Shown piece by piece: positions 12,601-43,983 of a stretch of DNA of 44,998 nt (within the stretch, counting starts at the first letter, position 1; every line of letters starts with the position of its first letter). A program made the position numbers and the translations under genes. Source of the DNA: Naegleria lovaniensis (Eukaryota > Heterolobosea > Eutetramitea > Acrasida > Naegleriidae). The notes beneath the pieces were generated by a model, which worked only from the letters and a program-made list of their open reading frames with translations, searched no databases and was not told the origin of the DNA. Location of the stretch: positions 671,243-716,240 of the forward strand of contig NW_025407836.1 of NCBI RefSeq assembly GCF_003324165.1, in the 5' to 3' direction.

Positions 12601-15600
12601 CTTGGGGTTGTTTCGACGAGTTCAACCGTATTAGAGTTGGTGTCTTGTCTGTCGTTGCCACACAATTTAAATCCATTCTTGATGCCCTCAGAGCCCAAAA
12701 GAAAGAATTTATTTTCGAACAGGAAAATATTTCACTCATTCCAACATGTGGTGTTTTCATTACCATGAATCCTGGTTATAAGGGACGTACAGAGTTGCCA
12801 GAAAACCTTAAAGCCTTGTTTAGACCTTGTGCAATGATTGTTCCTGACTTTATGAACATTTGCGAGATCATGTTGGCTTCAGAAGGTTTCATTAATGCAA
12901 AAGATTTGGCTAAAAAGTTTGTGACACTCTACAGATTGAATAAGGAATTACTATCCAAACAAGATCACTACGATTGGGGTCTTCGTGCCATTAAATCTGT
13001 GCTCGTTATTGCAGGAGGTTTGAAGAGAGCTGAACCAACAGTCTCTGAAGATCGAATTCTTATGAGAGCTCTCCGAGATACCAATCTTGCCAAATTATCC
13101 AAGGACGATATTGAAATTTTCAAAGGACTCATCAGAGATTTGTTCCCAAGAATTGAAATTGAGCCAAAGAGTGATCCAGAGTTGGTGAAGGCCATTAAAC
13201 AAGCAACTGAAGAACGTAAATTACAAACTGGAGAAAATGATATTTTCATTGGCAAGGTTGTTCAATTCAAGGAATTGCTCGATGTAAGACACTCTGTATT
13301 CGTTTTGGGTCCTGCTGGCTCTGGTAAGAGCTGTGTCTGGAAAACATTAGCCAAGGCTTTTGAAATTCAAGGCAAGAGAACTTGGTTCCATGTGCTCAAT
13401 CCAAAATCTGTCACCAGTGGTGAATTGTATGGTTATACTCATCCTGTTTCAAAAGATTGGAAAGACGGTCTTCTTTCATTCACAATGAGAGAAATGGCTG
13501 AAACTAAAACCTCAAATCCAAAGTGGATTGTATTGGACGGTGATATCGATGCTGAGTGGATTGAATCCATGAACACAGTCATGGACGATAACAAGGTCTT
13601 GACTTTGGCCAGTAATGAACGTATTCCACTCAATCCAACTATGAGAATGCTTTTCGAAATTGACCATTTAAGAAATGCCACTCCTGCCACAGTTTCTAGA
13701 GCTGGTATTCTCTTCTTGAACGAGACAGACATTGGATGGCAACCATTCAAAGAAAGCTGGATTGAGGCAAGAAATGTTGAAAAAGAAAAGCAAAACCTTG
13801 ATCGTTTATTCTACACCTATGCACCACACATTCTTGGATGGCTTAAAAAACATCATCATATCATTCCAAGACAAGATATCAACATGATTCAAACTTTGTG
13901 TTATTTGTTAGAAAGCCTCATCACACCCGAGTCATGTCCACCAGGATGTTCTCATGAAATTTATGAATACTACTTTGCATTTGCTTGTGTTTGGGCCTTT
14001 GGTGGTGCTCTAGAAGAGGATGAAAGAATACTTTTCAACGGAATGTTTAAGAAAGACTTCCCACAAGTTAAATTCCCAGATACCGCTACCGTTTTTGATT
14101 TCTATGTTGTCACTGAGGGAGACAGTGTCCGCCTTGAACCATGGTCTACTAAAGTCCAAGAGTATATTCATGACCCTGAATTACCATTCAGTGAAATTGT
14201 AGTGAATACTGCTGACACTGCCAGATTAACGTATTTGACTGATCTTTTGGCAGACAAGAAGAAACCTGTATTGCTTGTCGGTACTGCTGGTACTGGTAAG
14301 ACTACTGTGGTGAAAGGAAAGCTGAGAAATCTTGATGAGGATACTCTCTACACGACCATCAACTTTAACAGTAATACCGACGCTGAATCATTCCAAAACA
14401 TTCTTGAACAATCTATTGTTAAGAAGGCTGGTAAAATGTATGGTCCACCAGGTAGAAAGAAGTTAATTTACTTTATCGATGATTTGAACATGCCAAATCC
14501 TGACAAGTATGGAACACAATCTGCAATTGAATTTTTACGTCAACACATGGATTATGGCTTTTGGTACGACAGAAACAACATGAGTACTAAGGAAGTCGGT
14601 AACGTTCAATATATTGCAGCAATGAATCCAAAGGCTGGTTCCTTTACTGTCACAGGAAGACTTCAAAGACACTTTGGTATGTTTGCTTGCACATTCCCAG
14701 CAGATGCAGACTTGAGAACAATCTATTCTCAAATTATCAATTCTCACTTGGAGACCTTTGACAAGAAAGTTCATAATGTTGCTGGTAAATTGGTGGAAGC
14801 TACTATCAAGTTGCATAAGGAGGTTTCAAAGTTCTTCTTACCAACTGCAGTTAAATTCCACTATCAATTTAACCTTAGAGAGATTTCTAACCTTTTCCAA
14901 GGTCTATGTCGATCAACTAAAGAAAATTACACAGAACCATCTCAACTTATTAGATTGTGGATGCATGAATCGTTCAGAGTATTCTCTGATAGAATGACTG
15001 AGCATGAAGATGTTGCAAAATTCAATGCAATGGCTACCAAAATCAGTAAGGATGTCCTTGATTGTGAAATTACAGATGGTGAGAACTTGATATTTGCATC
15101 ATTCATTTCTGACCAAGATGGTAACGGTCCTTACATTGAAGCAACAGATTATCAAAAATTGAAACAAACTCTGGAAAGAAAGTTGGATGAATATAACTCA
15201 TCACGATCCATTATGAATCTCGAGTTGTTTAAACAAGCTATTTGGCATATTTGCAGAATTAGTCGTATTTTATCAAATCCAAGAGGTAATGCTCTATTGG
15301 TAGGAGTTGGTGGTAGCGGTAAACAAAGTTTGGCTAGATTGGCTTCATTCATTAACAATTATGAAATTTCGCAAATCACTGTTACACCATCCTACAAAAT
15401 TCTTGATTTCAAGAAGGATCTTTTGGAATTGTACAAGAAAGCTGGTGAAAAGGACATGAAGATTTCATTCATCCTAACTGACTCGCAAATTATTGACCAA
15501 AAGCAACTTGTGTTCATTAACGACTTTTTATCATCTGGATACATCCCTGAATTGTTCACACCTGACGACATTGAAAAATCTATTCAAGCAGTTCAACCAG

Positions 15601-18600
15601 CTGTTAAATATGCTGGTAAGGATCACAATGATAAGAAAGTGTGTTGGGACTTCTTCCTTGAAAAAGTCAAAAAGAATTTGCACTTGGTGTTGTGCTTCTC
15701 TCCAGTTGGTGAGCAATTACGTACTTGGTGTAGAAAATTCCCTGCCATCATGAATTGCTCTGTCATTGATTGGTTCCATGAATGGCCAAGAGATGCTCTC
15801 ATTTCTGTGGCTTACAGATTCCTTAACTTTGATGATCTTCAATTAGGAGATGAAGCCATGATCACCAATATTTCTGAGCATATGGCATTTGTGCATGAAT
15901 CTGTGAGCGAAGCTTGTAAGACTTATCAACAAGTGGACAGAAGATACAACTATACAACACCAAAGAGCTTCCTCGAACTCATTGAAGTCTACAAGAAGTT
16001 GTTGGCAAAGAAGAGAGAAGAGCTCAATAGCACTATTGATAGATTAAGCAATGGTTTGACCAAGATTAATGAATCTGAAGAAAAGGTGAAAGAATTGTCA
16101 ACCGTTCTTGCTCAAGAAGCTATTGTAGTCGAAGAGAAGAAGAGAGCCACAGAGGACCTGTTAGCAAAAGTCACTAAGGAAAATACTTTCTTGGCGAGCC
16201 AACAAAAAATTGTGGAAGAGGAAGAAGTCAAGCAAAACAAGGTTGTTGCTGAAGTTAATGCTCTTGCAAAAGTTTGTTCCGAAGAGTTAGCAAAGGCAGA
16301 ACCTCTTATTGAAAAGGCCAAGAAGAGTTTGGAAGTGTTGAATGTCAAGGACTTCCAAGAATTGAAATCATTCACAAACCCACCAGCTTTCGTCGACGTT
16401 GTCACTGCCGCTGTCATGATTTTGAAAGCTCCAAGAGGTGTTCCAAAGAATGTCGTTTGGGCTGAAAGCAAGAAGATGATGAACAATCCAAACCAATTCA
16501 TGACCGAACTAATTTCATTCAATGCTGAAACTATTCCAAAGATTCCACAGGAGAATATTGATGCCCTCAAAAATAACAAGTATTTACAACATCCAGAATT
16601 CAAGCCTGAATTGATTCAAAGCAAGTCTAAGGCTGCTGCAGGTTTGTGCGACTGGGTCATTAACGTGGTTGCGTTCTATGACTTGGACAAGTTGATCGAG
16701 CCAAAGAGACAACAATTGGCTCAAGCTATGGAAGAAAAGGAAAAGAATGAGAGCCACCTTAGAAAGATTAGTGACAAATTGAACTCACTCAGAAAGGCCA
16801 AAGAACAAGCAGAATTGGAACACAACAATGCTCAACAAGAACTGATTAGAATTGAAAAGCAAAAGAAAAAGACAGAAGACAAGCTCAGTCTTGCTCACAG
16901 ATTGGTCAATGGTTTGTCTGACGAAAAAATTAGATGGGCTGACTCGATTAAGGACCTCAAGGAACGTGAAAAGACATTGATTGGAGATGTATTACTGGCA
17001 TCTGCTTTCCTTTCATATGTTGGGCCTTTCACTAAAAAGTACAGAGATCATTTGGTGAATGAGAAATGGATTATTGATCTCAAGGAGAGAAAGATTCCAA
17101 CAACCGAAGGTATTGATCCTTTGTTTGGTGTTTTGGCTGAAGATGCCCAAGTTGCTCAGTGGAATAACGAAGGTCTCCCATCTGATAGAGTTTCAATTGA
17201 AAATGGTGCCATTGTCACAAATTGTAAACGTTGGCCGTTATTGATTGATCCTCAATTACAAGGTGTCAAGTGGATTAAGAACATGGAAAGCAAGAACAAT
17301 TTACAAGTTGTTCAATTGACCAAGAAGGGATATTTAGAGACTCTTATTCATGCCATCATGAACGGCTATCCCGTGCTGTTAGAAAATGTTGGAGAGTCAA
17401 TTGATCCAATCCTTGATCCATTGTTATCACAAAGTTACACCAGAAAAGGCAGTTCTGTCAGTATCAAGCTCGGTAATCGTGAGGTTGATTTCGATCCTAA
17501 ATTCAAGCTCTATATTCAAACTAAATTGCCTAATCCTCATTATCGACCAGAAATTGTTGCTCAAACTACCTTGCTTAACTTTATGGTCACGGAACAAGGT
17601 CTCGATGATCAGTTACTTGGTACTGTTGTCAACAAGGAAAGACCTGACTTGGAAGAGCTTCGTCTTTCTTACTTGAGACAACTAAGACAGTTCAAGATTG
17701 ACCTGAAGAATTGTGAAGACGCTCTTAGAAACGAGTTATCGAACGCTAAGGGTGACTATTTGGAGAATCACAGACTCATTGACAACTTGGAAGCTACCAA
17801 AAAGAAGTCACAACAAATCAAGGTTAGCTTGAAAGAAATTTTGGAGAATAACAAGATGATTGATGAAAGTAGACAAGTTTATAGACCTGTATCTATTAGA
17901 GGTTCCATGTTGTACTTCTTGATTGACCAATTGTCCAAGATTGATCACATGTATCAATATTCACTTGAAGCTTTCATGGTTGTGTTCAATAAGGCTCTTG
18001 AAAAGGCAGAAGCTGCAGAGGCTGTAGAAAAGAGAGTGGAAAACATTGTTGACAGCATCACCGAGACATTGTTCAGCTATGTGTCAAGAGGTTTGTTCGA
18101 AAGACACAAACTCATTTTCTCAACCATGCTTTGTATTGAGATTATGAAGAAGAAGAATGAACTCGATCCTACTCACATTGACTTTTTGTTGAGAGCACCA
18201 AGAATTGATGGAATTGAAAGAAAGGAAACTGTGATTGGATGGTGTTCTGAATTGAGTTGGGCATATGTTCAAGCATTGAGTCAAATTGAAGGAACAACAC
18301 CAGCATTCAACCTCCTTCCTGAGGACATGGCTGGTTCTTGGAGAAGATGGAAGGAATGGACAGAGTTTGAAAAGCCAGAAGAAAAGCCACTTCCATTAGA
18401 ATGGAAGAACTTGACACCATTCCAAAGATTATTAATTATTAGATGTCTCAGACCTGACAGATTGACAATGGCTGTCACAAACTTTGTTAAGGAACGTATT
18501 GGAGAAAAATATGTCAGAGATATCCCAGTTGATTTGGAGGTTTCATACCTCGATTCTGGCCCAACCACACCACTGTTCTTCATTCTATCACCTGGTGTAG

Positions 18601-20542
18601 ATCCTGTCAAATCTGTTGAAAAGATTGGTGAAAAGTATGGATTCACTACTGCACTTGGAAAATTCAAGAACGTTTCATTGGGAGAGGGTCAAACCGTTGT
18701 TGCCGAAAATGCTTTACAACACGCTTTCAGAACTGGTGGTTGGGTCATGTTGAACAACCTTCACTTGACTCCAGAATGGTTAGGTACATTGGAAAAGAAG
18801 CTTGACCAATTTGCTGAACAATACAGTAGACAAGAAATGAGAGAAAAGAAGAGAAGGAGAAGGAATCAGCACTGAAAAAGACATCTTCCACGACCAAGAT
18901 CAATGCCGAAGAAGCTGAAGTATCCATTGAGGTTGCTGAAACGACACCTCCAGCTGAAGAACAACCAGCACAAATTCCAGCTGAGGAACATCATGACGAC
19001 GATGAAGAAGAGGAAGAAGACAATGGACATCCTGACTTTAGAGTTTTCTTGTCGGCTGAACCTTCGAATCAAATTCCAATTGGTATTCTGCAAAGATCCA
19101 TCAAATTGACCAACGAACCTCCAAGCGGATTGAAAGCAAACTTGGTACGATCTCTGTTGCAATTTGATGATAATGTTTGGGAAGGAAGCTCCAAACAAAC
19201 AGAATTTAAGGGAATTTTATTCTCCCTTTGCTTCTTCCATGCCTGTATTGTGGAAAGAAAGAAGTTTGGACCTCAAGGTTGGAACAGAAATTATCCATTT
19301 AACCTTGGTGACTTGACAACATGTATTCTTGTATTGAACAACTACTTGGAAGATAGACCAAAGGTACCATGGGAAGATTTACGTTATGTCTTTGGTGAAA
19401 TTATGTATGGTGGTCACATTACTGACGATTGGGATCGAAAACTCTGCAAGACCTACTTGGAAAAGTTCATTCGCCCAGATGTAGTTGATCAAATCGAGTT
19501 GTGTCCTGAATTCTTGTCACCACCCACCAATTTGAGTCATAAGGGTTATTTGGAATATGTGGAAAAGAATCTTCCACCTGAAAGTCCTGTTTGTTATGGA
19601 TTGCATCCAAATGCAGAAATTGGTTTCAGAACTGCTCAAGGTGAAAATATGTTTAACATGATTACAGAAATGCAACCAAGATCTGCTGCAGGAGGAGGTG
19701 CTGGAATGACCTTCCAAGAAAAGGTTCAAGCTGGTATTCGAAGAATTTTAGATGCACTTCCTGAGCCTTTCAATTTGGAGGAAATTTCTGATCGACTCGA
19801 TGAAGAGAGAACTCCTTATCAAAACTCCTTCTATCAAGAATGTGAATACATGAACAAGTTGCTAGCCGAGCTTGATCGTTCACTCAAGGAATTACAAAGT
19901 GGTCTGGATGGTTTATTGACTATCAGTGACAAGATGCAAGTTCTACAAAACGCCATCTACATGAACAAGGTACCAGAGACATGGGCTGCTCTTGCTTATC
20001 CATCTCCAAGAAAATTGGACGGTTGGTTCGATGATTTACTTCAAAGATATCAACAATTGTTGAACTGGACAGCTGATTTGCAAACACCAAAGGTTGTTTG
20101 GATTTCTGGTTTGTTCAATCCTCAATCATTCTTGACTGCTATCATGCAAACTATTGCTAGACAAAAGACATGGGCTCTCGATGAAATGACTTTGGTTGCA
20201 GATGTGACCAAGAAGTATGCTGTTGATGAAATTGAACAAGCTGCAAGAGAAGGTGCCTATGTGACTGGTTTGTCGCTTGAAGGAGCTGCATGGGACTCTA
20301 AGAAGGGAACATTGGTTGATTCCAAATTGAAAGATCTCCATCCAAAGATGCCAATTATTCATATTAAGGCTGTCCAAAACGAAAAGGCTGATCCAAACAG
20401 CTTCTATGATTGCCCTGTTTATAGAACTCAAGAAAGAGGTCCAGATTATATCTTCACTTGTAAATTGAAGACTCGTGATCCTCCATCCAAGTGGATTATG
20501 GCTGGAGCTGCAATGCTTTTGGATTGTCCTTCAACCATCTAA
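6612..20542 (+). CDS. Axonemal outer-arm dynein heavy chain, beta type (DNAH9/11/17-like)
   Basis: This is the force-generating ATPase of the flagellar outer arm. Exon 1 is 6612-6757, followed by a 182-nt intron (6758-6939, GTAAGT...AAAG, phase 2); exon 2 starts at 6940. The joined reading continues FFENVEAKQIFIFYNSG..., matching the family N-terminus. Landmarks: EIEFW in the N-terminal tail; AAA1 GPAGTGKTETTK (~12459) with CFDEFNR; AAA2 GPAGSGKS (~13308); AAA3 VGTAGTGKT (~14278); AAA4 GVGGSGKQS (~15304); stalk coiled coils and microtubule-binding domain ~16010-16920; C-terminal domain with DFRVFLSAEP (~19030) and WNRNYPFN. The length of about 4,580 residues fits a complete heavy chain. Three frame breaks occur: near 7473-7476 (C4 run), 11189-11193 (T5 run) and 18835-18870 (A/G-rich). 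Protein similarity is continuous across each, so sequencing indels are more likely than gene death. The beta assignment rests on AAA1 (YVFNCTEQM, NIFKGLAMTGTWG) and AAA2 wording. Confidence 0.93.
6758..6939 (+). other. Dynein intron 1
   Basis: The donor is GTAAGT directly after ...GAATATAG and the acceptor is TTTAAAG before AAAAATCAC. Splicing joins AG|A (Arg) in phase 2 and removes an in-frame TAA just upstream of the acceptor. The rest of the 13.9-kb gene shows no other convincing intron. Confidence 0.85.
18830..19035 (+). other. Charged, acidic insertion within dynein motor
   Basis: Between the conserved LHLTPEWLGTLEKKL segment and DFRVFLSAEP, other dyneins have only a short linker. Here about 60-70 extra residues appear: a Lys/Glu/Arg-rich part, KKTSSTTKINAEEAEVS, a Pro/Glu/Ala part, and finally HHDDDEEEEEDNGH. 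One of the three frame breaks falls inside it. It has no GT-AG borders, so it is read as coding rather than as an intron. Confidence 0.65.
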
Positions 20543-26184: not shown

Positions 26185-29100
26185 ATGATAACAAACGATT
26201 ACGACGAAAATCCCCGAAGACGTCCCACGGAAGAAGATGATGACGAAGATGATAATGACCCACAACAACAAAATGGTGGTGATTATGATGAAACTGGTGG
26301 TTTTGATGATGGACCCAAATACCACAACAACAGCAATCGCATGTTGGGTCAACGTTCAAATTCAACCATGATGGGAGGCGATTACTATGATGATTCAGGC
26401 TTTTCTCCAGCTGTTGGACAGCAACACAGCAATCCAACAAATATTATGAACAATGTTTCGCCATCATCAACATCTTCAGTTTCACCTCCATATGGCGGTC
26501 AAGGATCATCAGGAGGATCATCAGACCGACTGGCATCATTCAGGTTAACAAAATCGAGAAGAAGAAAGTCGGCCAATATGGTTGAGAGACCGGTCTTCTT
26601 TACTTCAGAACGACATCAACCTTTTGTTCCCGTTCCAAAAGAGGTTATTGACTGGAGAATGAAACAACGGGTAAGTGGGGTGTTGAATAGTGTTACTTCT
26701 CACCTCTTGATATCACCGCATTTGAATCTCACAATATTGTTGCAAATGTAATTCGATTTTGGTCGGCATATATTCACAACCCATCGATGCCTATCTTAAA
26801 ATCTTTGGCAACCAAACACAAAATTTCAATTCTTTGGGTTGTTTCATCATCACTCACAGTTGAAAACTGTACACGTGGCTCTCGTAGTATGTCTCAATAT
26901 CGGTGTAGATCCACCAGATGTTGTCAAAGTACATCCATGTGCCAAATACGAATGTTGGGTTGACCCACAAGCACATCCACAAAAAGCTCTCGAAGGCATT
27001 GGTGCTAACTTGAAAATGCAATATGAACGATGGCAACCAAGAGCTCGTTACAAGCAATGCCTCGATCCAACAGTCGAAGATGTAAAAAAGACCTGTGTAC
27101 AGTTGAGAAAGAGTGCCAAGAAGGAACGAATTTTGTTCCACTACAATGGTCACGGAGTTCCCAAACCTACCACCAATGGTGAAATTTGGGTTTTTAACAA
27201 AACTTTCACCCAGTATATCCCTCTTTCATTGTATGATTTGTATTGTTGGATGGATTCTCCATCAATTTATGTATTTGATTGCTCTAATGCAGGTATAATT
27301 TTGAACAGTTTCATTCAAATCATTGAACAAAAAGATGTTCCTCCACGTGGAAGTATGATGAGAAAGGAAAATATTATTTTGGCTGCATGTGGAGTGAATG
27401 AAAATTTACCAATGAATCCTGATTTCCCAGCAGATTTATTTACATCATGTCTCACAACTCCAATCAAGATTGCTCTTAATTGGTTCATGCAACGAAACAA
27501 ACTTGTGGACGGTGTTACAGAAGAACTCATTGATAATATTCCTGGGCGAATTAACGATAGAAGAACACCAATTGGAGAGTTAAATTGGATTTTCACTGCT
27601 GTCACAGATACCATTGCATGGAATGTGTTACCTAGAGATTTGTTCCACAAATTATTTAGACAAGATCTTTTAGTTGCTAGCTTATTTAGAAACTTTTTAT
27701 TGGCTGACAGAATTATGAGATCTGCAAATTGTACACCTGTGAGTTATCCAAAACTTCCAGAGACTCACAACCACCCAATGTGGGACGCATGGGATTTAGC
27801 TTTAGATCAATGTGTCTCACAACTTCCAAATTTACTCAACAATCCCAATGCTGAGTATCAGTATAGTCCATTCTTTTCCTCCCAACTAACAGATTTCCAA
27901 GTTTGGTTAGATTTTGGACATCGAATTCAGAAACCACCAACTCAACTTCCAATTTTGCTTCAAGTTTTATTGAGCCAGAGTCATCGTTTGAGAGCTTTGA
28001 CACTTTTAGGAAGATTTTTGGATATGGGAAGTTGGGCTGTTAACTTGGCTCTTTCTGTTGGTATTTTCCCATACGTTCTCAAATTATTACAAAGCAATTC
28101 TTTAGAGCTTCGAAGAATACTAGTATTTATTTGGACCAAAATTTTAGCACTTGACAGACCTTGTCAAGTCGATTTGGTCAAAGATCATGGTCATAGCTAC
28201 TTTATCAATATTCTGGTAGAACGAAATAATGATAGTGAGCTACGAGCAATGGCATGTTTTGTTCTATCGGTCATTGCCGATCGATTTATTCCAGGCCAAC
28301 AAGCTTGTTTAAAGTACAAGAATTTGTTTGATGTTTGTGCAGCTCAATTGATTGAACAGGATTCACTTTTACGAAAATGGGCATGTTTGTTAATTGCTAA
28401 ACTATTGGAAGACTTTGATGAAGCTCAAGAAGTCGCAATCAAAGTTGGAACACATGACAAGATTTTACACTTGTTAAATGACGATGTTCCAGAGGTGAGA
28501 GCAGCTTGTGTTTTCACATTGCAAAAGTTTATTGGTTTGAAGCCTGAAAAGACTGAAGAACGAATTCAAGGTGAGATTAAAATTGGTACTGCTCTCTATC
28601 AGGTGATTTTGGATGGTTCACCTTTAGTGCGAAAGGAGCTTGTTTATGCACTGGGTACTCTCATTCAGCAATACGGAGAATACATTGCACCTGAATTGCT
28701 CAAATCCATCATTAGAGAAGAGACTCATCATCTCACCAGTGCTCCAACCCCGATTCTAGTTTCTGGCTCCAATCCACAAAATCCTTCTACTCCTAGTACT
28801 TTAATTTTCCAACAAAAGAAGAAAAAGAAGAAGGATAGAAAAACCTTGGAAGCAGACCTCAACTCTCAAACTCCAACACCAAAAGATTCCAAAGTATTGA
28901 AAGACATGAAGGACCGAGAGCTTGGTACTCTCTCATATTTTGTATTGGATGTTTGTCGAGTGGTCATCATGCTTTGCTTTGATCCGGTACGTGAGGTCGC
29001 AGAAGAAGCTCACAAGATACTTTCCTTCATGAAGTATTCATTCACGAAATTGAATGATGATGAATTTGAGAGAGAGCTCTTTTTAATCAAAGAAAAGGCC

Positions 29101-30465
29101 TTCAATGCACAATCTGTTCCAAAGAGTCCTTCACTGAAACCAATGCCAAAGCGATTAATGGATAAATTATCAATAAGAAAGAGTGCAAGCGATTCTGATT
29201 TCTTAAAAGCAGGGTATGCTCAACAACAAAACAACTACTCGGATGACGATACTGACTCTGACAGCATGGACGCCACTTCTGCCTCTACCCATCAACTAGT
29301 TTTTATGAAATCTTCCTTCTACGAAAGAAGTTGTGAATATTTTTCGAATCCAATTCTACCAGAAAATGTAACAAAGGATGACTTTGTGTCACCTCAAACA
29401 TTGAAGAGACGAAAACGTAATGAACATTTAGTGAAGGAAGCTAGTACCATGTTGAAACTTGTTGGTAAGAGAAAACTTGAGGAGCAAATTGGATTCTTTG
29501 GAAATGAGACTGAAATTGTCTCGCAAATGAAATTCCACGGATTTGAGCCATATCTAGTAGTTTCCGATGAAAACGACGGGCTTACAATTTGGAACTGGGT
29601 CCGTGGAGCCATTGTGAATCAATTCAAATGTGGTGACATTCTGAAGAGTAGAATAACTGATTTCCACATTATTAACGAGGAGTCAGAACAATCCATGCTT
29701 TTGGTTGCTTCAGCTGCAGGTAATGTGGCCATTTACAAAAATTACGAAAAGAAAGAGGAGCCTGTTTCTTCTTTCAGAGCTGCTCATGAAGCTATCGCCA
29801 ACGAAAGTGGTTTGGGAATTTTAACTGAATGGCAACAACATAATGGAACATTATTTGTCACTGGAGATATCGAAAAGGTGAAAATTTGGGATGTTGAAAA
29901 GGAACTCTGTGTTCAAAATTTGCAATTGGATTCTCCTGTAACCTCGATTACTTCAGATCCAAACAATGGCTTCCTTTTTGCTACAGGCTGTACCAATGGC
30001 AAGATATTAATTTTTGACAAGCGAGAATCGAGTTCGAGTCCTATTTTAAGCCATCAACTTATTTCACACTATGAAGAATGCCACAAGAATTGGGTTGTAA
30101 GCACCAAGATTCAAAATGTGAACAGTTATCAAGTGATTAGTGGTTGTGCCAACGGTGACATTATGTTCTGGGATACTCGAGTGACCAATAAGTGTGTCAA
30201 ACAATTCAATGCCCACAAAGGTTCCATGACTGCTCTGGCCATTCATAACTATGCTCCAGTACTTGCATGTGGTAGTAATAATCAATTTATTAAGGTTTTC
30301 AATACTTCTGCGGAAACTCTAAGCATGATTTATTATCATGATGGATTTTTGGGTCAGAGAATCGGTCCAATTTCATGTCTTGCATTCCATCCTTTCCGAA
30401 TGTGTCTAGCTGCTGGTTCTACTGATTCTATTATTTCACTGTACTCGAGTCAAGAAAAGCCATAG
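26185..30465 (+). CDS. Raptor, TORC1 scaffold subunit
   Basis: Raptor presents substrates to the TOR kinase in TORC1. Exon 1 (26185-26670) ends ...WRMKQR; a 189-nt intron (26671-26859, GTAAGT...CACAG, phase 0) follows; exon 2 (26860-30465) begins LKTVHVALVVCLN, so the conserved junction WRMKxR-xKTV is restored. The protein is about 1,363 residues, close to animal raptor. Domains: a disordered Asp/Asn/Gln/Ser-rich N-terminus (about 1-115); the raptor N-terminal caspase-like domain with GVDPPDVVK, the His of HYNGHGVP and the Cys of FDCSNAG; a HEAT-repeat region (about 480-800); a Lys-rich linker (QQKKKKKKDRK); and a C-terminal WD40 domain (about 990-1360) with FWDTRV and IFDKR blades. The two caspase-dyad positions are present, but raptor proteins are not known as proteases. 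No frame break is seen. Confidence 0.95.
26671..26859 (+). other. Raptor intron
   Basis: The donor is CAACGG|GTAAGT and the acceptor is CTCACAG|TTGAAA, phase 0. Removal joins WRMKQR to LKTVHVALV, a junction conserved in raptor proteins. Confidence 0.9.
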
Positions 30466-34767: not shown

Positions 34768-37657
34768 TTATTCATCAGACTGAACAATATTGAGCAATGG
34801 AATTTTACAAACTGTGTGCGAGAATGGGCTTGTTTGTCGAGTGAAAATTCTCTTAATGTCAGTACCGTACAAATACAAATCAGATCCAACAAAGGTTGGT
34901 GTGTAGAGAGAGAGCGATGTTAAAACATCTCCTGATACTGTCCACGATCCCAAAGGATCTTCCGTTGTTGCAAATGAGACTCTTGGATTGTAGTCATTCA
35001 ATGTTCTTGGGACTCCTTTGCTTGCAAAACCTCCAAAAATGAAAATGTAATCACGTGTGACCACCATTGGACCATCTGAATAAGTGAAAGGAAGCACTGA
35101 GTAAGTATTTTCCCATTTTGATGGGAATATGTAAGGTGCTCTCAAAATGTCACTATATGCTTCTTGAGATGGAGATCTACCTCCAAAGATGTAGAGGTAT
35201 TGACCAATTTGTGCAATCTTTCCACCATAAACTTGGTTTGGCAGGACGTCTGGTGAAATTGTCCAAACTCTTGGTTCAGTGATTGATGCTCGGATAATCT
35301 TATTAGTGACAGAGTAGTTTTTAGAGTCTGTTGAATGTATACCACCGTAAATAAATATTGTGTCGTCTACAACAACACAATGGCCTGAGGCAATGGGATA
35401 GGGTAATGTGTATTTGAGTTGTTCCCATCCATTCTCAACATCAGAAACAGGGGCTCGATAAATCTTGTCGCTGATAGATCCATTCACAACTCCTCCAAAG
35501 AAGTAAATGTACTCTTGAGCTCTGACAACATGTGTATTGTAAATGGTGCCAGGGAATGCTTTCTTGGTCTTGTTATTGTAATCGACAAGGTCCCAAGTGT
35601 ATGGATCGCTCAAGTTTCGATAGTGTAACTGGAAGCCGTTCTCTACCAAAGGATAGAATTGCTCGCCAATAAATTGATAAGCCTTGTCATTAACCTCAAA
35701 GTATGGGTAGTGTCTTCTTTCCAAAGAAAATCCAGTGTTGGCGTCAAAAGTCCATCCTAACTTGAATCCTGTTCGATCAGTTGTAATGTTTGGTAACAAT
35801 CCTATTGTTCCTTTTCCTGTTCCAACAATCATGGCGTCTGTAGTGAAACCTACTGATGCCTGGTCCATAGCAGCAACTTCAGTAATTAAATGATTGTACA
35901 ATGTGTCGGTTGGGAGGTCGGTAACTGGTGAAGGAACGGTTTGATAATAATTTCCAGAAGCTCCTGCTCTAGTTGTATGACCTAATTGATAATTCGTATT
36001 CTCGCCCCATGAATACCACTTGCCGTCATTGGTTAATGCAAATGCAACATTTCGTCTAGAATAAATTTTGACAATACTCTTTCCAACAATATTTGTCAAT
36101 GACACCTTGGTTGGTGTGCTCTTGGTAGTAGTGTCACCAACACCAAGTTGGCCCTTTTCATTTCTTCCCCATGCAAACACTGTTCCATTTTCGGTCAACA
36201 CCATTGTGTGGTAATCTCCGCATTGTAAATCAACAATGGTTTCATCACCAAGTTCAGCAGGTTTTGGTATTGGTACAGCTTCCATGATATAGTCTGCAGC
36301 AGATTCGTATCCTAAACCTAATTGTCCATATTGATTGTCTCCAAATGAGTACAATTGATTGTCGGTCGTCAGTACAACTGTGTGAAGATCACCTCCGCAA
36401 ACAAGAGTTACTGCTTTGTTGAGTAAAGCGCCTTCCATGTAAACGTTGATTGGTTTGTTCTTGTCAATGGTTGTTCTATCTCCTAATTGTCCTCTGTTGT
36501 TTTTTCCCCAAGCATAAAGTTTACCAAATTGATCAATGGCATAAAAAACGTATGGTGCTGCAGCCACTTGTTCTACCATCTTTGGACCCTGCAAATCCCA
36601 AGAACAGACTTTCAATGGTACCACACGAGGTTCAATGGTACCATCACCAACTTCTCCTTTACTATTCTCTCCCCAAGTATATACTTCGTGACCATATGCA
36701 AGAACAATGTTGCTATAATAGGAGGAATCAAATTGGAGAATTGTAAGGTTTTGTGGAAGTTGGACAGGTTTCGAAATATCTAGACCATAGGTAGCTCCTT
36801 GAGTGTATTCAGATCTTCCTAGAGAGCCCTTATTGTGTCTTCCCCAAGAGTACAATAATCCATTTCCATGAAGGTGGAGACCATGCTCTTTACCTGCTGA
36901 TAATCTGTTTCTTTTTCTAACGACAGGGTGATAAGAGGCATAATTGCGCAAGTAGCCATGAGTAATATTAAAGACCAATGGAAGTGGAGCAGAGGTTTCG
37001 TTTGTGATCGTCCATTTTGAAGGGTCGTTGAGATAATTAACCGAGTCCTGATCAGTTTGTACAATTATTTATCATTTACGCGAGAAACAAAATATTGTAA
37101 CACTTACCTCCACCAATCTCCTTAACTTATTGTAGGTATGGTTGAAGCCTGTGTTAGTGAATGCTATTAAAGAGTCGAGCTCCTTCACCGTGGCTAAAAC
37201 ATTGTTGTATTGCTTGACCTTGTTTTCGAGCATTGTTTGGTATTGGTCTCTTGGTATGCCGAATTGTGAAATATAATTCTCAGAGTACTGGATGGCTTCG
37301 CTGATGACAGATATCTTTTCAAGAGTTCTTGCCTCGAGCATTTCTTTCTTTTGACTCTTGTAATCTTGCAACACCGAGTAATAGCTATCTCGTCTTTCTC
37401 TATACAAGCCGATTTTATAATAGGCCTCATCTAATGGCAGCTGTTGTGTTCGTACAAGTTGTAAAACTATTCATTCATCATGGTCATATTTTCAATAGTT
37501 CCTTATTAGTTTTACAAGCCTCAATATTATGAATCTTACCTGAGCAGATGAATAAACAGGCCACCAAAAGACTGGCAATCCCAGATCTTCCGAGCGAAAT
37601 AATGGAAGGTCTGCCTTGTTGTTTCATTTTTTTGTGGTGTGGTAAGCCTGAGGCCAT
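34768..37657 (-). CDS. Secreted RCC1-repeat + Kelch-repeat protein, copy A
   Basis: The exons are 37657-37540, 37466-37108 and 37047-34768 (introns of 73 and 60 nt, phases 1 and 0), giving 918 residues. Exon 1 encodes a signal-peptide-like segment (SGIASLLVACLFICS). Exon 2 is a helical, probably coiled-coil, domain (EARTLEKISVISEAIQYSEN). Exon 3 has at least six RCC1 repeats (YSWGRHNKGSLGR, YTWGENSKGEVGDG, YAWGKNNRGQLGD, YSFGDNQYGQLG, FAWGRNEKGQLG, YSWGENTNYQLG). Kelch-type blades follow (YFFGGVVNGSISDKIYRAP, YIFGGRSPSQEAYSDILRAP, IFIFGG). Several N-x-S/T sites fit secretion. It is a full paralogue of the neighbour at 37718 with identical intron phases. The likely location is the cell surface or secretory lumen; its function is unknown. 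RCC1 folds here need not mean Ran exchange. Confidence 0.88.
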
Positions 37658-37717
37658 TACGATCAGACTAAATTAACGGTAAATTTACAGCAGCCTCAAA
37701 ACACACACCATAAAAAA
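37658..37717. promoter_or_regulatory. 60-bp bidirectional promoter between paralogous genes
   Basis: Only 60 bp separate the two divergent start codons, so both 5' UTRs and any core promoter elements must sit here or overlap the first exons. The sequence is AT-rich (ACTAAATTAACGGTAAATTT in the middle), followed by CACACACC and an A-run on the right. No TATA box can be assigned with confidence. Confidence 0.6.
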
Positions 37718-40635
37718 ATGACTACAGCAAGGGCAACCTTGCCCTCATTCGCTCCCACTGGCAAGATGTTCTCGTCAGTAGTAATGATGATGGCTTTGCT
37801 TTTCGCACTAGTGATAGCCACCGGATATGGTATGTACCTTTGTTTCATTTCAACAACTCATCATCTTTTGATATCAATTTCATATTTCCCCAACTATTTG
37901 AACCTAACTTCATTACCATGGATACCTTCAACATCATGATACTTTCAGTTCATGTTGCTTCACAGGCCCCTTCTTCCACTTCATTCACACAATACGTCAT
38001 CTCGCTCATGTTCATGATCCAAAAGAGGGCTAGTTTAATGTCCATCAAACAGGATTTTCTTACGAAAAGAAGCGCTGTTCAATATTCGCAAAGAATCAAC
38101 TCGAATACGCAATCAGCAATGGCCATGTCGAAGCCTTACGTGACCAAGTTAGGTCTCAATCAACAACAATATGATGCTCTATTGGAAGCCAAGATTAAAC
38201 AAGCAGATAAATCCAATCAGGATCTATACGAAGCAAATAGCTACGTAAACGTCACGGAGAATGCCATTTTGGTGACAAACGAAAATATCGAATTAATCAA
38301 TCAGGTATGTAGGTTGGAAGTTTCAAAAGTATTCTAATAGAAATTATTTTAACCCATTCATACTCATTTTAACCTCTCACCTCAGAATCTTACCAGCGTA
38401 CTATTAAGCTATCACAAATGGCAAACTACAGAACAGCACTTGATTTCTGGCAATATGTCCATACAACCAGTGAATGGATATATGGAGTCATATACCACAT
38501 TTATGCCCGTTCTAAGAATTAGAAATAGAATATCGGCAGGTGCAGGTCATGGCCTGTTCATTGGACCAAATGGTCGAGTGTACTCATGGGGAGTAGATAC
38601 AGGAGGTAGCTTGGGAAGAGAAGCCACAAAATCTCAACCATTTCCTTCGTTGAGCACTCCTACTGACCTGCCAGCCAACCTTACCATACAGCAAATTGCT
38701 TCTACATATTATGGTAATCTCATCTTGAGTGAAGATGCTGTCTACGATTGGGGTAAAAACGATTACGGACTTGCTGCTGATGGTACTATCCTTAATAGAA
38801 AAGTTCCAACCAAAGTGTTTTCTTGGGATTTGCAGGGACCAAAAAGAATTGATCAAATTGCAGCTGGTGCATTCAACTACTTTGCAGTAGATGAGAATGG
38901 CAAGTTGTACTCATGGGGAAGAAATGATAGAGGACAACTCGGAGATAGAACCACCATCGACAAATGGAGACCTGTCGACGTTTACATGAAAGGTTCTCTT
39001 GTGAATCAAACTGTTGTTAAGGTTTGTGCAGGACAATTACATACCACTGTATTGACTTCACTCGGTCAAGTCCATACCTTTGGAGACAATACGTTTGGAC
39101 AATTGGGAATTGGAAGAAGTGGCAGTGATAAACCATTCATTATGGAAGCAGCTAATGTTGTCATGAATGGCTCATTGGCATCTAAAACTGTTGTTGATAT
39201 CCAATGCGGTGATTTCCACAACCTTCTTCTTACCGCAGATGGTAAAGTTTATGGATGGGGTCTCAATAACAAGGGTCAAATTGGTGATGGCTCTATTGCT
39301 GCTAGATTATTCCCTGTACAGATTCCAGATTACTCTTTTGACAACCGAAGAATAATTTCAATCATTGCTGATATGAACGTTTCTTTTGCAATTGCTGAGA
39401 ATGGTCCTTTATATGCTTGGGGTCAAAACGATAATTATCAACTTGGTGTAAATGCATCTTCGTATGTTACTACACCTCAAACCGTGTCTCTTCCAGCAGG
39501 ACTTGCTCCCGTTGAATTGGTAATGATGGAGAAATCCACCATCATGCTTGCAACAGACGGAAATTTCTATGGTACAGGTTATTCATCGTCGAATGCTGAA
39601 CTGCTAAATGTTACTACTCCACAAACTAATTTTTCTCTTGTGTATGCATTCCCTAAACAATACTTACCTCTAGAGAGAAGACACTATCCTTATATTGAAC
39701 TCAATGATATTTCATATTCGTTCGTTGGTAGACATTTCTTCTCTTTCCCTGACAATGGTTTTGATGCATTTGTTAGAAATAACACATCTCCAGAGTATTG
39801 GAAAATGTTGGATTACCACAACGCTACCCGTAAAATTTTCCAAGGTTCAATTTACAATACTCACGTTCTTCGTGCCAACAATTATGTTTACATGTTTGGA
39901 GGAATAGTCAATGGTTCCATCTCAAATGTGATTTACAGAGCACCTATTGACAATATTGAGAATGGATGGGAGACTGTCAAACAAACCTTACCTTATGCCG
40001 TTGCATCTGGAATGTCAATCTTACTGGATGATTATTATTACATTTTTGGAGGTCTAGTTTTTTGGCAAGATCAAGCAGGTTTTGTTAATATTTCTGCCAC
40101 GTCTTCGATTCTGAGATGCCATGTTTCAAGTCCAACCCAATGGGAAGTTATGAAATCTGGTAGCCTTCCAAAAGGTGTCTATAGTGGAAATATTGCAAGG
40201 ATTGACGATTATGTCTACATATTCGGTGGTAGAGTCAGTACAGGAGATGCTTATGCTGATATCTTGAGAGCTCCATATCTTAACGTTAGTCAATGGATCA
40301 ACACTTATGCTGTTTTACCTTTCCCAATTGCAGATGGACCAATGGTGATCACTGATGACAATATTTATATCTTTGGAGGTTATATTTCGGAAAATACTCC
40401 TGACGTTTTGGGCAAGTACATTAAGAGAGTATGTGTGACTACTAAGAAAGATCCTGTTGGAATGTGGACCGTGTCAGGAGATGATCTTCCAACCGTACCT
40501 GCTCATTTAGCAGTTACAACATCTGTAGTTGTTGATAATAATCTGTACTTGTATGGATATGATTCAACAAAACCAACGACGACACATATCCAAGACAAGT
40601 TGGTCAACTCTTTCGTTCGAATTCCTTTTGTATAA
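37718..40635 (+). CDS. Secreted RCC1-repeat + Kelch-repeat protein, copy B
   Basis: The exons are 37718-37829, 37949-38304 and 38386-40635 (introns of 119 and 81 nt, phases 1 and 0), giving 905 residues. Exon 1 supplies a hydrophobic signal segment (SSVVMMMALLFALVIATGYG). Exon 2 gives the helical region (KLGLNQQQYDALLEAKIKQ). Exon 3 gives RCC1 repeats (YSWGVDTGGSLGR, YDWGKNDYGLAADG, YSWGRNDRGQLGD, HTFGDNTFGQLG, YGWGLNNKGQIGDG, YAWGQNDNYQLG), then Kelch-like blades (MFGGIVNGSISNVIYRAP, YIFGGRVSTGDAYADILRAP, YIFGGYISENTPD). Domain order, exon plan and many short blocks (SWDLQGPK, GDRTTIDK, ERRHYPY) match copy A, so the pair arose by an inverted duplication. Substrate and partners are unknown. 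Confidence 0.88.
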
Positions 40636-41228: not shown

Positions 41229-41781
41229 TTTTTTAAAATTATTGCAAAAATGATGAACAAGCACAGCCGTCTTTGTCAACATTTCTCATTGCTCATTTAT
41301 CTCTCCAACAAACACAATAATTAAATTCAAGTTGTTCATTTGGAAAGAAATAACAATGGAACTTTTGAACCTCTTCTTGTCGTGAATGAAATTCTCATAA
41401 CAGTTGAACAAGTCAGTCTCAACACTCTGATGGACCCATCACTCGACATTATTCAACTACGTTCCGAGATAACCAGTAGGAAGAACCCCAAAACAACGCA
41501 CATATAATTTCAAATCAAAGCACAACACGACCTTTCAACACATTTCAACCTGCCATGATGTAATAATTTTGAATGAATACAACAAAACTACAACAAAAAA
41601 CATCATCTGTGGTATACTTGCAAAGAGCCCTTTAGAATTGTACAACACAACATTCGCATCATTTACGAAAGCTACTCTTCGGCCACTATCTAGGTTTTCC
41701 TTCAACAAACAAAAGAGTCAACACACAAGCAACAAGAGAGACAAAACAACAACAACAACAACTAGCATTTTCATTGATCAA
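41229..41781. other. Divergent intergenic region
   Basis: It holds the promoters of the small minus-strand gene and the multi-pass membrane protein. The frame of the membrane gene is open back to about 41569 but only with a TTG. It is Thr/Asn/Lys-rich there, with an ACAACA run near 41748-41763, so it is treated as leader. No other gene is seen. Confidence 0.5.
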
Positions 41782-43983
41782 ATGAACGAATCCATGACAA
41801 GTGCCTCTCAATGTGGTATGAGTTCCATGTCTCAACCCTACAAACCACCACAAACAACAGTTCGTAAATTTGGTAAACGAGCACCACCGAGTGTTGTCTT
41901 TTCAAGCCTCACCGGAAGTTCTACCAACAACACCTCCTCAACCAATACCTACACTCGACAATACATGACACGTGCCAAAGATTCTTTATTGAATAATATC
42001 ATCATGCTCAAAGATAAATCAGTACAAAAGGATTGGAAATACTATGTATTGACCTTGAGTGTGGTGTTGTATACGAGTTTATGTAGTATCCTGATTGGAA
42101 CTCAGGGAACATTTCATCAAGGAGAATATGGAGATTGGATTTGGAGAGCTGTAAATTTCATCATGACTCTCTCTTTAGATTTGCTACCGTATGAGGGAAT
42201 GATGTCATTGGCAATTTTGTGCATGATTGTCTCATTTGGTGGAATTGTGTTGTATTTTTTGGCATTTCGATTGACACGAAGAGCTCGTTATTTGTTTCAA
42301 TTCAAGACAGCGATTAAGGTTTTTGGAACATTTACCATTACTTGTAGTTTCATCATGATTTATATTCTCTCGTCGTTTTATGATTGTAACTATTCGAAAC
42401 ATGTCAAATTTACAGGTTATTCCACTCCACAGCCAGTATTGTCAAGATTTCCAATGCACATGTGTCACGATGCAACCACGATTATTTTAATGATTTTTTC
42501 AATTTGTTCAATCGTGTGCTTGATTGTCATGAATGTCATATTTTCAATCATTTTATCCAATTCACATGTGTTAAATAAGGCCATGTTTATTGTAGAGACA
42601 CCTACCTTTCCTATCGTCATGTTGACCATTTCAGAGTTGCAGTTGGCAATCATGTACTTTATTCCAGAATCACTCGTTTATGTTCGATCCATTCTACATA
42701 TTGTCTTGTCCTTTGTTTTGATTCCAATGCTATTTTATTCAGTTCCATATTTTAAACGAGTGGAAAATTCCATCATGAGTGGTGTGTGTTTTGCCAAATG
42801 TTTGGCTCCTGTTGGAAGTTTAGTGAGCTATTTTTCCAACTCGTCCAATGAACGATTTTTAGGATTGGGTCTGTCGTTTTTGCCACTTGCTCTCATTATT
42901 GGTGGATTTTTCATTGGATTTGTTGCCATGGAAATCTATACAAGAATGGTAGTGTGGTCCATTCGAAAAGACATGATGTTCAATTTTGATCCCACTCTCT
43001 CAGATACTGAAAATATTCAAAGATTAGAGAAAGAGTCTTCGTTTTTGGTGAAAGATCTCGAAGCTACTAAAAGAATGAGAAGCTTTGAAATGTTTATCAA
43101 GTTTAGCATTTTGAATCATTCTAAAATTAGAGGAACTCAATTGCACGATCGTGATTTAGGAATTGCCATTGTCAAGTCCATGACGAATCACAAAAATTTC
43201 ACACAATCCAACATTTTATGTTTGGCTGGAATTCTAGTTGCCTTTTTTTGGGAAGAAGAATTCAATCGATTTGGATTCGCATCTGCCATGCTGAAACGAG
43301 CGTTCAAGAACAAGTCTGGAATTATACAAGATCTCATCTATCGAGAACGAATCATGGAAATTGAGATTGCTTCAGAACAAGCACGAGGAGTTAAACGTTC
43401 GATTGCTGACATTGTAGATGTGCTTGTCACGTTACAAACAAAACAGAAAAGAATCACTGCACTTCACAAAGCTTTTTGGAAATGTCTCATGGAAGAAGTG
43501 GTCAATTACAACACCGTTTCATATATTAACAGAACTATTACAAGAATGACCCGAGAATGCATTGAAACATTTGGCCATTTAATCAAAAATTATAGACATG
43601 AACGATCCATCAAACGTCTCTATGCCAGATTTGTTGAAGAGGTTTTGTTTGATTTTGAAACGGCCAATGAAATTTATGAAGAAACAGATGAAGCAGATGA
43701 CGATGATACAAGATATCAAGCAGGTTACATCGAGCTTCATCATCATGGTTCTAAAGGAGGGGTTGCAGCAAAGAACAGAGTTCATCCTTATACCTCCTTG
43801 TCACCTAAAGAAAAAACCATGGCAAGTTTGGATTTAACTGGACTCCATGGAGGAAGCACAGAACTTGTTGAAAATGCTGAAGAGCTTGATTTGAAAGAAG
43901 CAGCAGAAGATGAAGCCAACAAACGAGAATTTCTAATTAGAGCTGCAATTTCAACACCACCTAATAGTATTGGGTTTGGATAG
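41782..43983 (+). CDS. Multi-pass membrane protein with long cytosolic helical tail
   Basis: The first in-frame ATG is at 41782 (MNESMTSASQCGMSSMSQ...), giving 733 residues. An upstream extension would need a non-ATG start. A polar Ser/Thr/Asn N-terminus is followed by about eight hydrophobic helices between residues ~95 and ~395 (for example VLTLSVVLYTSLCSILIG, ILCMIVSFGGIVLYFLAF, LGLSFLPLALIIGGFFIGF). A cytosolic helical region follows (EKESSFLVKDLEATKR, RIMEIEIASEQARGVKRS, RHERSIKRLYARFVEEVLF), then an acidic stretch and a disordered end. The last block loosely recalls the LYA-FLEEVL type segment of large TmcB-like membrane proteins found in protists, where it precedes PAS or cyclase domains; none is present here. 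It may be a receptor or sensor. The function is not established. Confidence 0.72.
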   Translation: MNESMTSASQCGMSSMSQPYKPPQTTVRKFGKRAPPSVVFSSLTGSSTNNTSSTNTYTRQYMTRAKDSLLNNIIMLKDKSVQKDWKYYVLTLSVVLYTSLCSILIGTQGTFHQGEYGDWIWRAVNFIMTLSLDLLPYEGMMSLAILCMIVSFGGIVLYFLAFRLTRRARYLFQFKTAIKVFGTFTITCSFIMIYILSSFYDCNYSKHVKFTGYSTPQPVLSRFPMHMCHDATTIILMIFSICSIVCLIVMNVIFSIILSNSHVLNKAMFIVETPTFPIVMLTISELQLAIMYFIPESLVYVRSILHIVLSFVLIPMLFYSVPYFKRVENSIMSGVCFAKCLAPVGSLVSYFSNSSNERFLGLGLSFLPLALIIGGFFIGFVAMEIYTRMVVWSIRKDMMFNFDPTLSDTENIQRLEKESSFLVKDLEATKRMRSFEMFIKFSILNHSKIRGTQLHDRDLGIAIVKSMTNHKNFTQSNILCLAGILVAFFWEEEFNRFGFASAMLKRAFKNKSGIIQDLIYRERIMEIEIASEQARGVKRSIADIVDVLVTLQTKQKRITALHKAFWKCLMEEVVNYNTVSYINRTITRMTRECIETFGHLIKNYRHERSIKRLYARFVEEVLFDFETANEIYEETDEADDDDTRYQAGYIELHHHGSKGGVAAKNRVHPYTSLSPKEKTMASLDLTGLHGGSTELVENAEELDLKEAAEDEANKREFLIRAAISTPPNSIGFG

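Follow-up and report, generated by a model that had tools for sequence, protein, structure and literature searches.

The window, the whole 44,998-nucleotide stretch of Naegleria lovaniensis DNA analyzed here, contains two genes whose start codons face each other at positions 37657 (minus strand) and 37718 (plus strand) and whose stop codons lie at 34768 and 40635, the limits of the region studied. GT..AG splice sites were picked by hand, giving the following features.

34768..37047, minus strand: minus gene exon 3, RCC1 propeller followed by Kelch repeats and the stop codon; RCC1 186 bits, Kelch_4 37 bits
37108..37466, minus strand: minus gene exon 2, helical domain; modelled helices at exon-product residues 11-47, 51-68, and 72-118, mean pLDDT 78
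37540..37657, minus strand: minus gene exon 1, carrying the start codon and a hydrophobic signal segment whose hydropathy peaks at residue 26 (2.45); intron donor GTAAGA, in phase 1
37658..37717, no strand: spacer between both start codons, exactly 60 bp from ATG to ATG
37677..37690, no strand: near-palindrome CGGTAAATTTACAG, the window copy of an inverted element common to the four head-to-head spacers examined
37718..37829, plus strand: plus gene exon 1, carrying the start codon and a hydrophobic signal segment whose hydropathy peaks at residue 17 (2.36); intron donor GTATGT, in phase 1
37949..38304, plus strand: plus gene exon 2, helical domain, ending in phase 0; called helical through a 23% identity alignment to the modelled minus exon 2
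38386..40635, plus strand: plus gene exon 3, RCC1 propeller followed by Kelch repeats and the stop codon; RCC1 174 bits, PF24681 59.7 bits

The plus and minus genes encode proteins of 905 and 918 amino acids, respectively, which are 42% identical by BLASTP (359/862 residues, E = 0.0), with 46 to 47% identity between the exon 3 products. Both genes have three exons separated by GT..AG introns in phases 1 and then 0. The first-pass annotation of this DNA had described two paralogues of about 900 residues diverging from a 60-bp spacer with a common three-exon layout, and our models confirm that this head-to-head arrangement of two genes is real. Other genes in the window, all on the plus strand, include a frame beside the pair with a TmcB-type TPR match (41569-43983; 48.8 bits, cut-off 27), a Raptor homologue (26839-30465; Raptor_N 240 bits, with WD40 repeats), and a frame matching dynein heavy chain N-terminal regions (7420-11211), which is followed in another reading frame by a second long frame (11169-18875), with an intron likely between the two. 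In the S-adenosylhomocysteine hydrolase, 12 of 442 aligned residues differ from PDB 5v96, a Naegleria fowleri structure, which points to a Naegleria other than N. fowleri.

Exon 3 encodes both repeat regions. RCC1 scored far over the Pfam cut-off of 21.7 (174 bits for plus and 186 bits for minus), with six stretches passing singly in each protein and seven repeats counted by eye, and both proteins therefore belong to the RCC1-like propeller superfamily by the curated cut-off for RCC1 repeats. In the downstream part, the plus gene product matched PF24681 (59.7 bits, cut-off 50), Kelch_4 (27.5, cut-off 21.6), and Kelch_6 (27.7, cut-off 25.3), and the minus gene product matched Kelch_4 (37), Kelch_6 (34), and Kelch_1 (20.6, cut-off 20.1), its PF24681 score of 48.6 bits being slightly below the cut-off. 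By whole-protein scores over the curated cut-offs, both are Kelch repeat proteins, the plus gene through PF24681 and the minus gene through Kelch_4. No Kelch_4 or Kelch_6 repeat passed singly in either exon 3 product, and the 45 places listed from a Kelch_6 search of the whole genome included none at a family locus. The Kelch repeats of the pair are diverged and individually weak. No known extracellular domain, EGF and fibrinogen included, was matched in either exon 3 product in the Pfam scan.

AlphaFold2 modelling of minus exon 2, with plus exon 2 aligned, gave three helices with a pLDDT of 78. The exon 3 model, built from only two sequences, had a mean pLDDT of 42 and was too poor for use. 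The exon 2 model had no match at E 0.001 in Foldseek, and a Pfam scan of this exon gave only matches below the cut-offs. A helical domain, at least six RCC1 repeats, and the order of RCC1 followed by Kelch, all read from the sequence at first pass, are borne out by the three modelled helices, the six singly passing RCC1 stretches, and the Pfam Kelch matches downstream.

The genome searched comprised 30.69 Mb in 97 contigs; the published assembly of this species is described as 30.8 Mb in 111 contigs and 77% coding, with introns in 47% of genes and a median intron length of 80 bp (PMC6125883). When the two exon 3 products were compared with the genome, at least 67 and at least 74 matches were found among the best candidates scored. 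Among the matches listed, 11 loci had matches entering the Kelch half, and the remaining ones stopped by approximately residue 415, inside RCC1. These 11 loci are the two window genes, C8, C32, C15, and six on contig C39. The pair is therefore not singular in this genome, since all 11 match along both propellers among the matches listed. We modelled the nine other loci, eight in full and C15 in part, with splice sites picked by hand and the window pattern in view; under this procedure, three exons with phases 1 and 0 were found in 8/10 full models, and the shortest intron among the family models was 42 bp. One exception is the paralogue 362m, which lacks the first intron, so that its signal segment and helical domain form one uninterrupted exon. 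The other is 165m, whose exon layout deviates from the family pattern and whose start codon is uncertain.

Several paralogues differ from the window pair in their tails. In exon 3 of 362m, C-terminal EGF repeats matched EGF_Teneurin with 66 bits (cut-off 24.3), and the C15 frame gave EGF_Teneurin matches of 34.8 and 26.3 bits against the same cut-off. The paralogue 406m matched Fibrinogen_C with 27.4 bits (cut-off 22) over a short stretch of approximately 33 of 221 profile positions, and this was the one place with fibrinogen-C in the whole-genome search. EGF and fibrinogen matches in 165m were both below the cut-offs. For 410p, EGF and fibrinogen were absent among the matches listed, though its tail looks similar by eye, and the exon 3 products of C8m, C32m, 366p, and 403p had no EGF or fibrinogen matches. 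EGF_Teneurin itself is frequent in the genome, with at least 150 matches among the best 150 of 636 candidates. RCC1 and EGF_Teneurin occurred together in at least five other open frames, on C26, C11, C23, C73, and C19 (paired by the same contig, strand, and frame length), those on C23 and C73 resembling copies of each other. From these frames, exported RCC1 proteins may form a broad group in this genome.

We judged signal peptides by hydropathy and inspection of the cleavage site. Each window protein has a single hydrophobic segment, at the N-terminal, with Kyte-Doolittle maxima of 2.36 (plus) and 2.45 (minus), which argues against a nuclear location. The N-terminal maximum was 1.6 or higher in 9/10 full models, the tenth, 406m, reaching 1.54. 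That the hydrophobic first exon is joined to the remainder, as had been proposed, is upheld by 362m, where no intron separates the segment from the helical domain; together with the same layout in the paralogues, this exon also led us to reject a separate gene for the hydrophobic exon. N-X-S/T sequons past residue 60 numbered 135 in the ten family proteins, compared with 102.7 ± 9.0 in 500 shuffles (maximum 133; 0/500 reaching 135). The excess was uneven, 403p being under its own shuffles, and in a control set of six other frames from the window, the TPR protein lay 2.2 sd above its shuffles, with the remaining five within one sd or below. We therefore take the sequon excess as supporting evidence only. 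The EGF and fibrinogen-C matches in paralogues and the single exon of 362m make an exported family likely, and we regard export of the family proteins as very probable from their sequences; the lumenal or surface location assigned to the pair at first pass accordingly gains support from these paralogues.

An alternative concerns how the proteins are held after entry into the secretory pathway. With an uncleaved signal anchor, they would be tethered to membranes or retained in the lumen of the ER, Golgi, or phagosome, and would act there as scaffolds or in protein quality control instead of outside the cell. The minus gene would fit this: its N-terminal stretch of approximately 25 residues has basic residues ahead of the hydrophobic run, and its cleavage site (VRT/QQ) is poor. 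C15m has a longer tail ahead of its hydrophobic run. By contrast, the signals of C8m (MMKYLIGISLLICCLAVAPIVWA/QN), 362m (..LSSA/QE), and 403p look cleavable by inspection, and some paralogues carry EGF repeats or a fibrinogen-C motif, features characteristic of proteins that are secreted or on the surface. We therefore consider anchored or resident proteins unlikely as the general case, though a signal anchor is possible for the minus gene.

The neighbors of the window pair, 406m, 410p, 362m, 366p, and 403p were examined. Three pairs of family genes are arranged head to head, namely the window pair with 60 bp, 406m/410p with 75 bp, and 362m/366p with 396 bp between the start codons. In addition, 403p is divergent from a giant EGF-repeat open frame of 8,789 codons that also has a hydrophobic N-terminal stretch, with 272 bp between the start of 403p and the first ATG of this opposite-strand frame (L051 1074, minus). 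Five clustered family genes lie around this frame (C39:360500-414500). By its short shared spacer of 60 bp, the window pair qualifies as a candidate bidirectional promoter pair. In a tree that took C15m as a partial sequence and left a conversion tract unmasked, C8m, which lies on another contig, grouped with the plus gene (91.3/85), and the minus gene joined them next (74.8/70); 406m and 410p were sisters, and 362m and 366p were not. From these positions, 406m/410p probably arose by local inverted duplication, the window pair may have done so, and 362m/366p are unlikely to have done so in a simple form. The window genes may thus not be sisters, and the inverted duplication by which the first-pass annotation had explained them does not follow from the tree, in which the plus gene is closer to C8m than to its neighbor.

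The sister genes 406m and 410p (L051 4535-8347 and L052 3923-7512) contain 413 identical nucleotides within an otherwise diverged coding sequence, and third positions were identical at 30/30 in four windows, compared with mostly 10 to 19 of 30 elsewhere. This tract is likely the product of a recent gene conversion. The longest identical run in the window pair was 18 nucleotides, with no conversion-like tract. From the tree and alignments, the family would have diversified by dispersal, local rearrangement, gain and loss of tails, and gene conversion in one pair.

A short motif recurs in the last 60 bp before the start codons. Against a mostly coding background, TTTACAG was the top 7-mer in this interval, being present in 5/10 nonredundant members (Bonferroni 5e-5 over 16,384); 406m, a near duplicate of 410p that carries the motif too, was excluded. 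The five are the plus gene of the window, 410p, 403p, 165m, and C15m. The minus gene of the window has the variant TTTACCG at -26; 366p and 362m have TTTACAG only farther out (-142 and -227), C8m has only TTTACCG (-121), and C32m has neither form within 250 bp upstream. In the next 190 bp upstream, TTTACAG occurred twice in 1,900 bases, or approximately 0.6 per 600 bases, which is well over the rate of the sample. Among 48 sampled open-frame starts, many of them internal exons, only that of C15 had the motif in the last 60 bp.

In the head-to-head spacers, the motif is part of an inverted element, GTAAA-N0..30-TTTACAG, which was found at seven distinct places in 114 kb of DNA (the window and the additional DNA fetched): the four head-to-head spacers, just upstream of 165m, the C32m coding sequence, and one elsewhere. 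In the whole genome, the pattern gave 222 strand-counted matches, compared with 1,039 for its backward control, and, being below this control, it is no general feature of the genome. At the genome rate, the four spacers, with 803 bp in total, would be expected to hold approximately 0.006 inverted matches, but the true surprise is smaller than this value implies, because the pattern was picked after the spacers had been viewed and because the spacers are noncoding. An extended form, TTTACAGYAGC, occurred 49 times in the genome, compared with 65 for its backward control; the spacers of the window pair and of 406m/410p account for three of the 49. The inverted element is likely a two-sided promoter element, as judged from its sequence and position. 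As an alternative, TTTACAG, which resembles a 3' splice site, may be a splice acceptor in the 5' UTR. An intron formed by the inverted element itself was rejected by length, since the copy in the window is 12 bases long and the longest one sampled 39, compared with 42 for the shortest modelled intron. The shared promoter proposed for the 60-bp spacer is thus supported at the level of sequence, by the TTTACAG enrichment and the inverted element.

Close spacing could also be an accident of a gene-dense genome, the two genes being regulated separately. The coding density cited above (77%; PMC6125883) would favor such an accident, as would the finding that 15/33 gaps between convergent or tandem open frames in the 114 kb were shorter than 100 bp and that 362m and 366p are not sisters. 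On the other hand, three family pairs and the 403p/EGF frame are divergent and have the inverted element in 4/4 spacers. Moreover, the spacers of 60 and 75 bp are shorter than all eight divergent gaps between open frames of at least 150 codons in the same sample (139-1,875 bp, taken as upper limits, since short first exons go undetected). An accidental arrangement is thus a real but not a favored possibility, and co-regulation of the head-to-head genes is plausible, somewhat better than an even chance on these sequence features.

Taken together, the earlier observation appears to have been true and understated, in that the pair is part of a probably exported double-propeller family. Our preferred reading, to which we give a probability of roughly 0.55 from the sequences, is that the window contains two members of an exported double-propeller Naegleria family that would serve in prey or surface recognition and be expressed from paired promoters. 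The N-terminal hydrophobic segment would direct the proteins into the secretory pathway, probably with cleavage, and the helical domain may oligomerize. An RCC1-type propeller, with seven blades by visual count, and a Kelch propeller would offer surfaces for binding in the extracellular space or the endomembrane lumen. Recognizing or holding prey or surfaces would be the most likely role, some paralogues having EGF repeats or a fibrinogen-C motif, and this part is a reasoned guess that we hold tentatively. In the compact spacers, the inverted GTAAA..TTTACAG element would probably act on both sides and fire both genes jointly.

A bolder and rather improbable extension of the preferred reading is that these proteins are an extracellular recognition class of Naegleria's own, with RCC1 and Kelch propellers on a helical dimerizing stem and with or without EGF or fibrinogen tails. 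Facing partners would be switched on together by the family-specific inverted element, may heterodimerize, and would have diversified by gene conversion between facing genes. If true, a protist lineage in which few molecules of adhesion are known would have a modular repertoire for recognition. Adhesion factors are described as still mysterious (PMC8296547), and in Willaertia a "regulator of chromosome condensation" is named among the most expressed movement-related genes (PMC7285305). In the titles, abstract openings, and selected passages of the literature available to us, we found no published account of an RCC1 and Kelch family in Naegleria. Attachment of Naegleria to surfaces and prey is poorly known; the family supplies named candidate genes that can be tested in nonpathogenic Naegleria, and the inverted element, as a promoter candidate, can be tested directly.

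The closest solved relatives of the RCC1 part by sequence were the propellers of UVR8 (PDB 4dnw and others) and the RCC1-like domain of HERC2 (3kci). Both proteins are intracellular and are not known to have a signal segment or Kelch repeats, and UVR8 is marked by GWRHT repeats with a tryptophan cluster. These relatives would favor intracellular RCC1-type proteins, such as a Ran exchange factor or a UVR8-like protein, with the hydrophobic exon absent from the mature product. A pangenome study likewise lists 18 accessory Naegleria genes as RCC1/UVR8, with possible protection from phototoxicity (PMC9928731). However, GWRHT was found in 0/10 family proteins, and on this ground we reject a UVR8 reading. 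Moreover, the layout with phases 1 and 0 is kept in 8/10 full models, 362m encodes the segment and helical domain in one exon, and two family members have EGF tails; we therefore consider intracellular proteins of this type extremely improbable. Accordingly, the name RCC1 should not by itself lead Naegleria genes to be read as regulators of Ran or as UV-B receptors.

Returning to the probably exported family, its Kelch part weakly matched by sequence the Kelch domains of KLHDC10 (9d8p) and LZTR1 (9mey), which have other partners and domain orders, and matched the Pfam attractin/LZTR1 propeller below the cut-off. Attractin is extracellular. A weak match over approximately 30 aligned residues was also obtained with the β-lactamase inhibitory protein II BLIP-II (3qhy). 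BLIP-II is a secreted protein that has RCC1-like repeats and binds a bacterial enzyme; it differs from the family in being bacterial and having a single propeller.

Comparison of exon 3 by tblastn gave matches in 33/50,697 phage and 76/72,556 plasmid records, and the 20 listed for each lay mostly over the RCC1 part. Two matches covered at least 80% of the query and had 13 RCC1 stretches each with no Kelch match, one of them being annotated with a secretion-sorting domain; a further plasmid match, from Hymenobacter canadensis, covered 74%. The Kelch part gave one weak match in the 50,697 phage records. In searches of phages, plasmids, genome contigs, and viral contigs, with this genome as the eukaryotic coverage, no RCC1-then-Kelch protein was found outside this genome. 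Among 985 stop-to-stop frames of at least 200 codons at 160 loci (80 of 130 confirmed in genome contigs and 80 of at least 585 in viral contigs), 220 matched the profile of the RCC1 part, one that of the Kelch part, and none both; with RCC1 as the source of three of the four seed peptides, this screen would overlook Kelch fusions of other subtypes.

Some of these prokaryotic and viral proteins have settings that suggest work beyond the cytosol. A Hymenobacter RCC1 protein has an annotated T9SS sorting domain (24.2 bits, under Pfam's cut-off of 27); a Synechococcus phage RCC1 protein is encoded near a tail-fibre gene. The nearest parallel in architecture is WP_320690687.1, from a Monoglobus pectinilyticus plasmid and obtained in the plasmid comparison, which carries Kelch and RCC1 in one protein far above the Pfam cut-offs and whose gene adjoins an RHS-repeat gene. 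It is bacterial, with no evidence of common descent of the fusion with the Naegleria family, and its order is reversed, with Kelch at approximately 58 to 235 and RCC1 from approximately 334. A fusion of Kelch and RCC1 thus exists in bacteria in the opposite order, and the premise of the first-pass annotation that both propellers are usually intracellular appears doubtful here in view of this protein, the sorting domain annotated in Hymenobacter, and the five RCC1 and EGF frames of the Naegleria genome.
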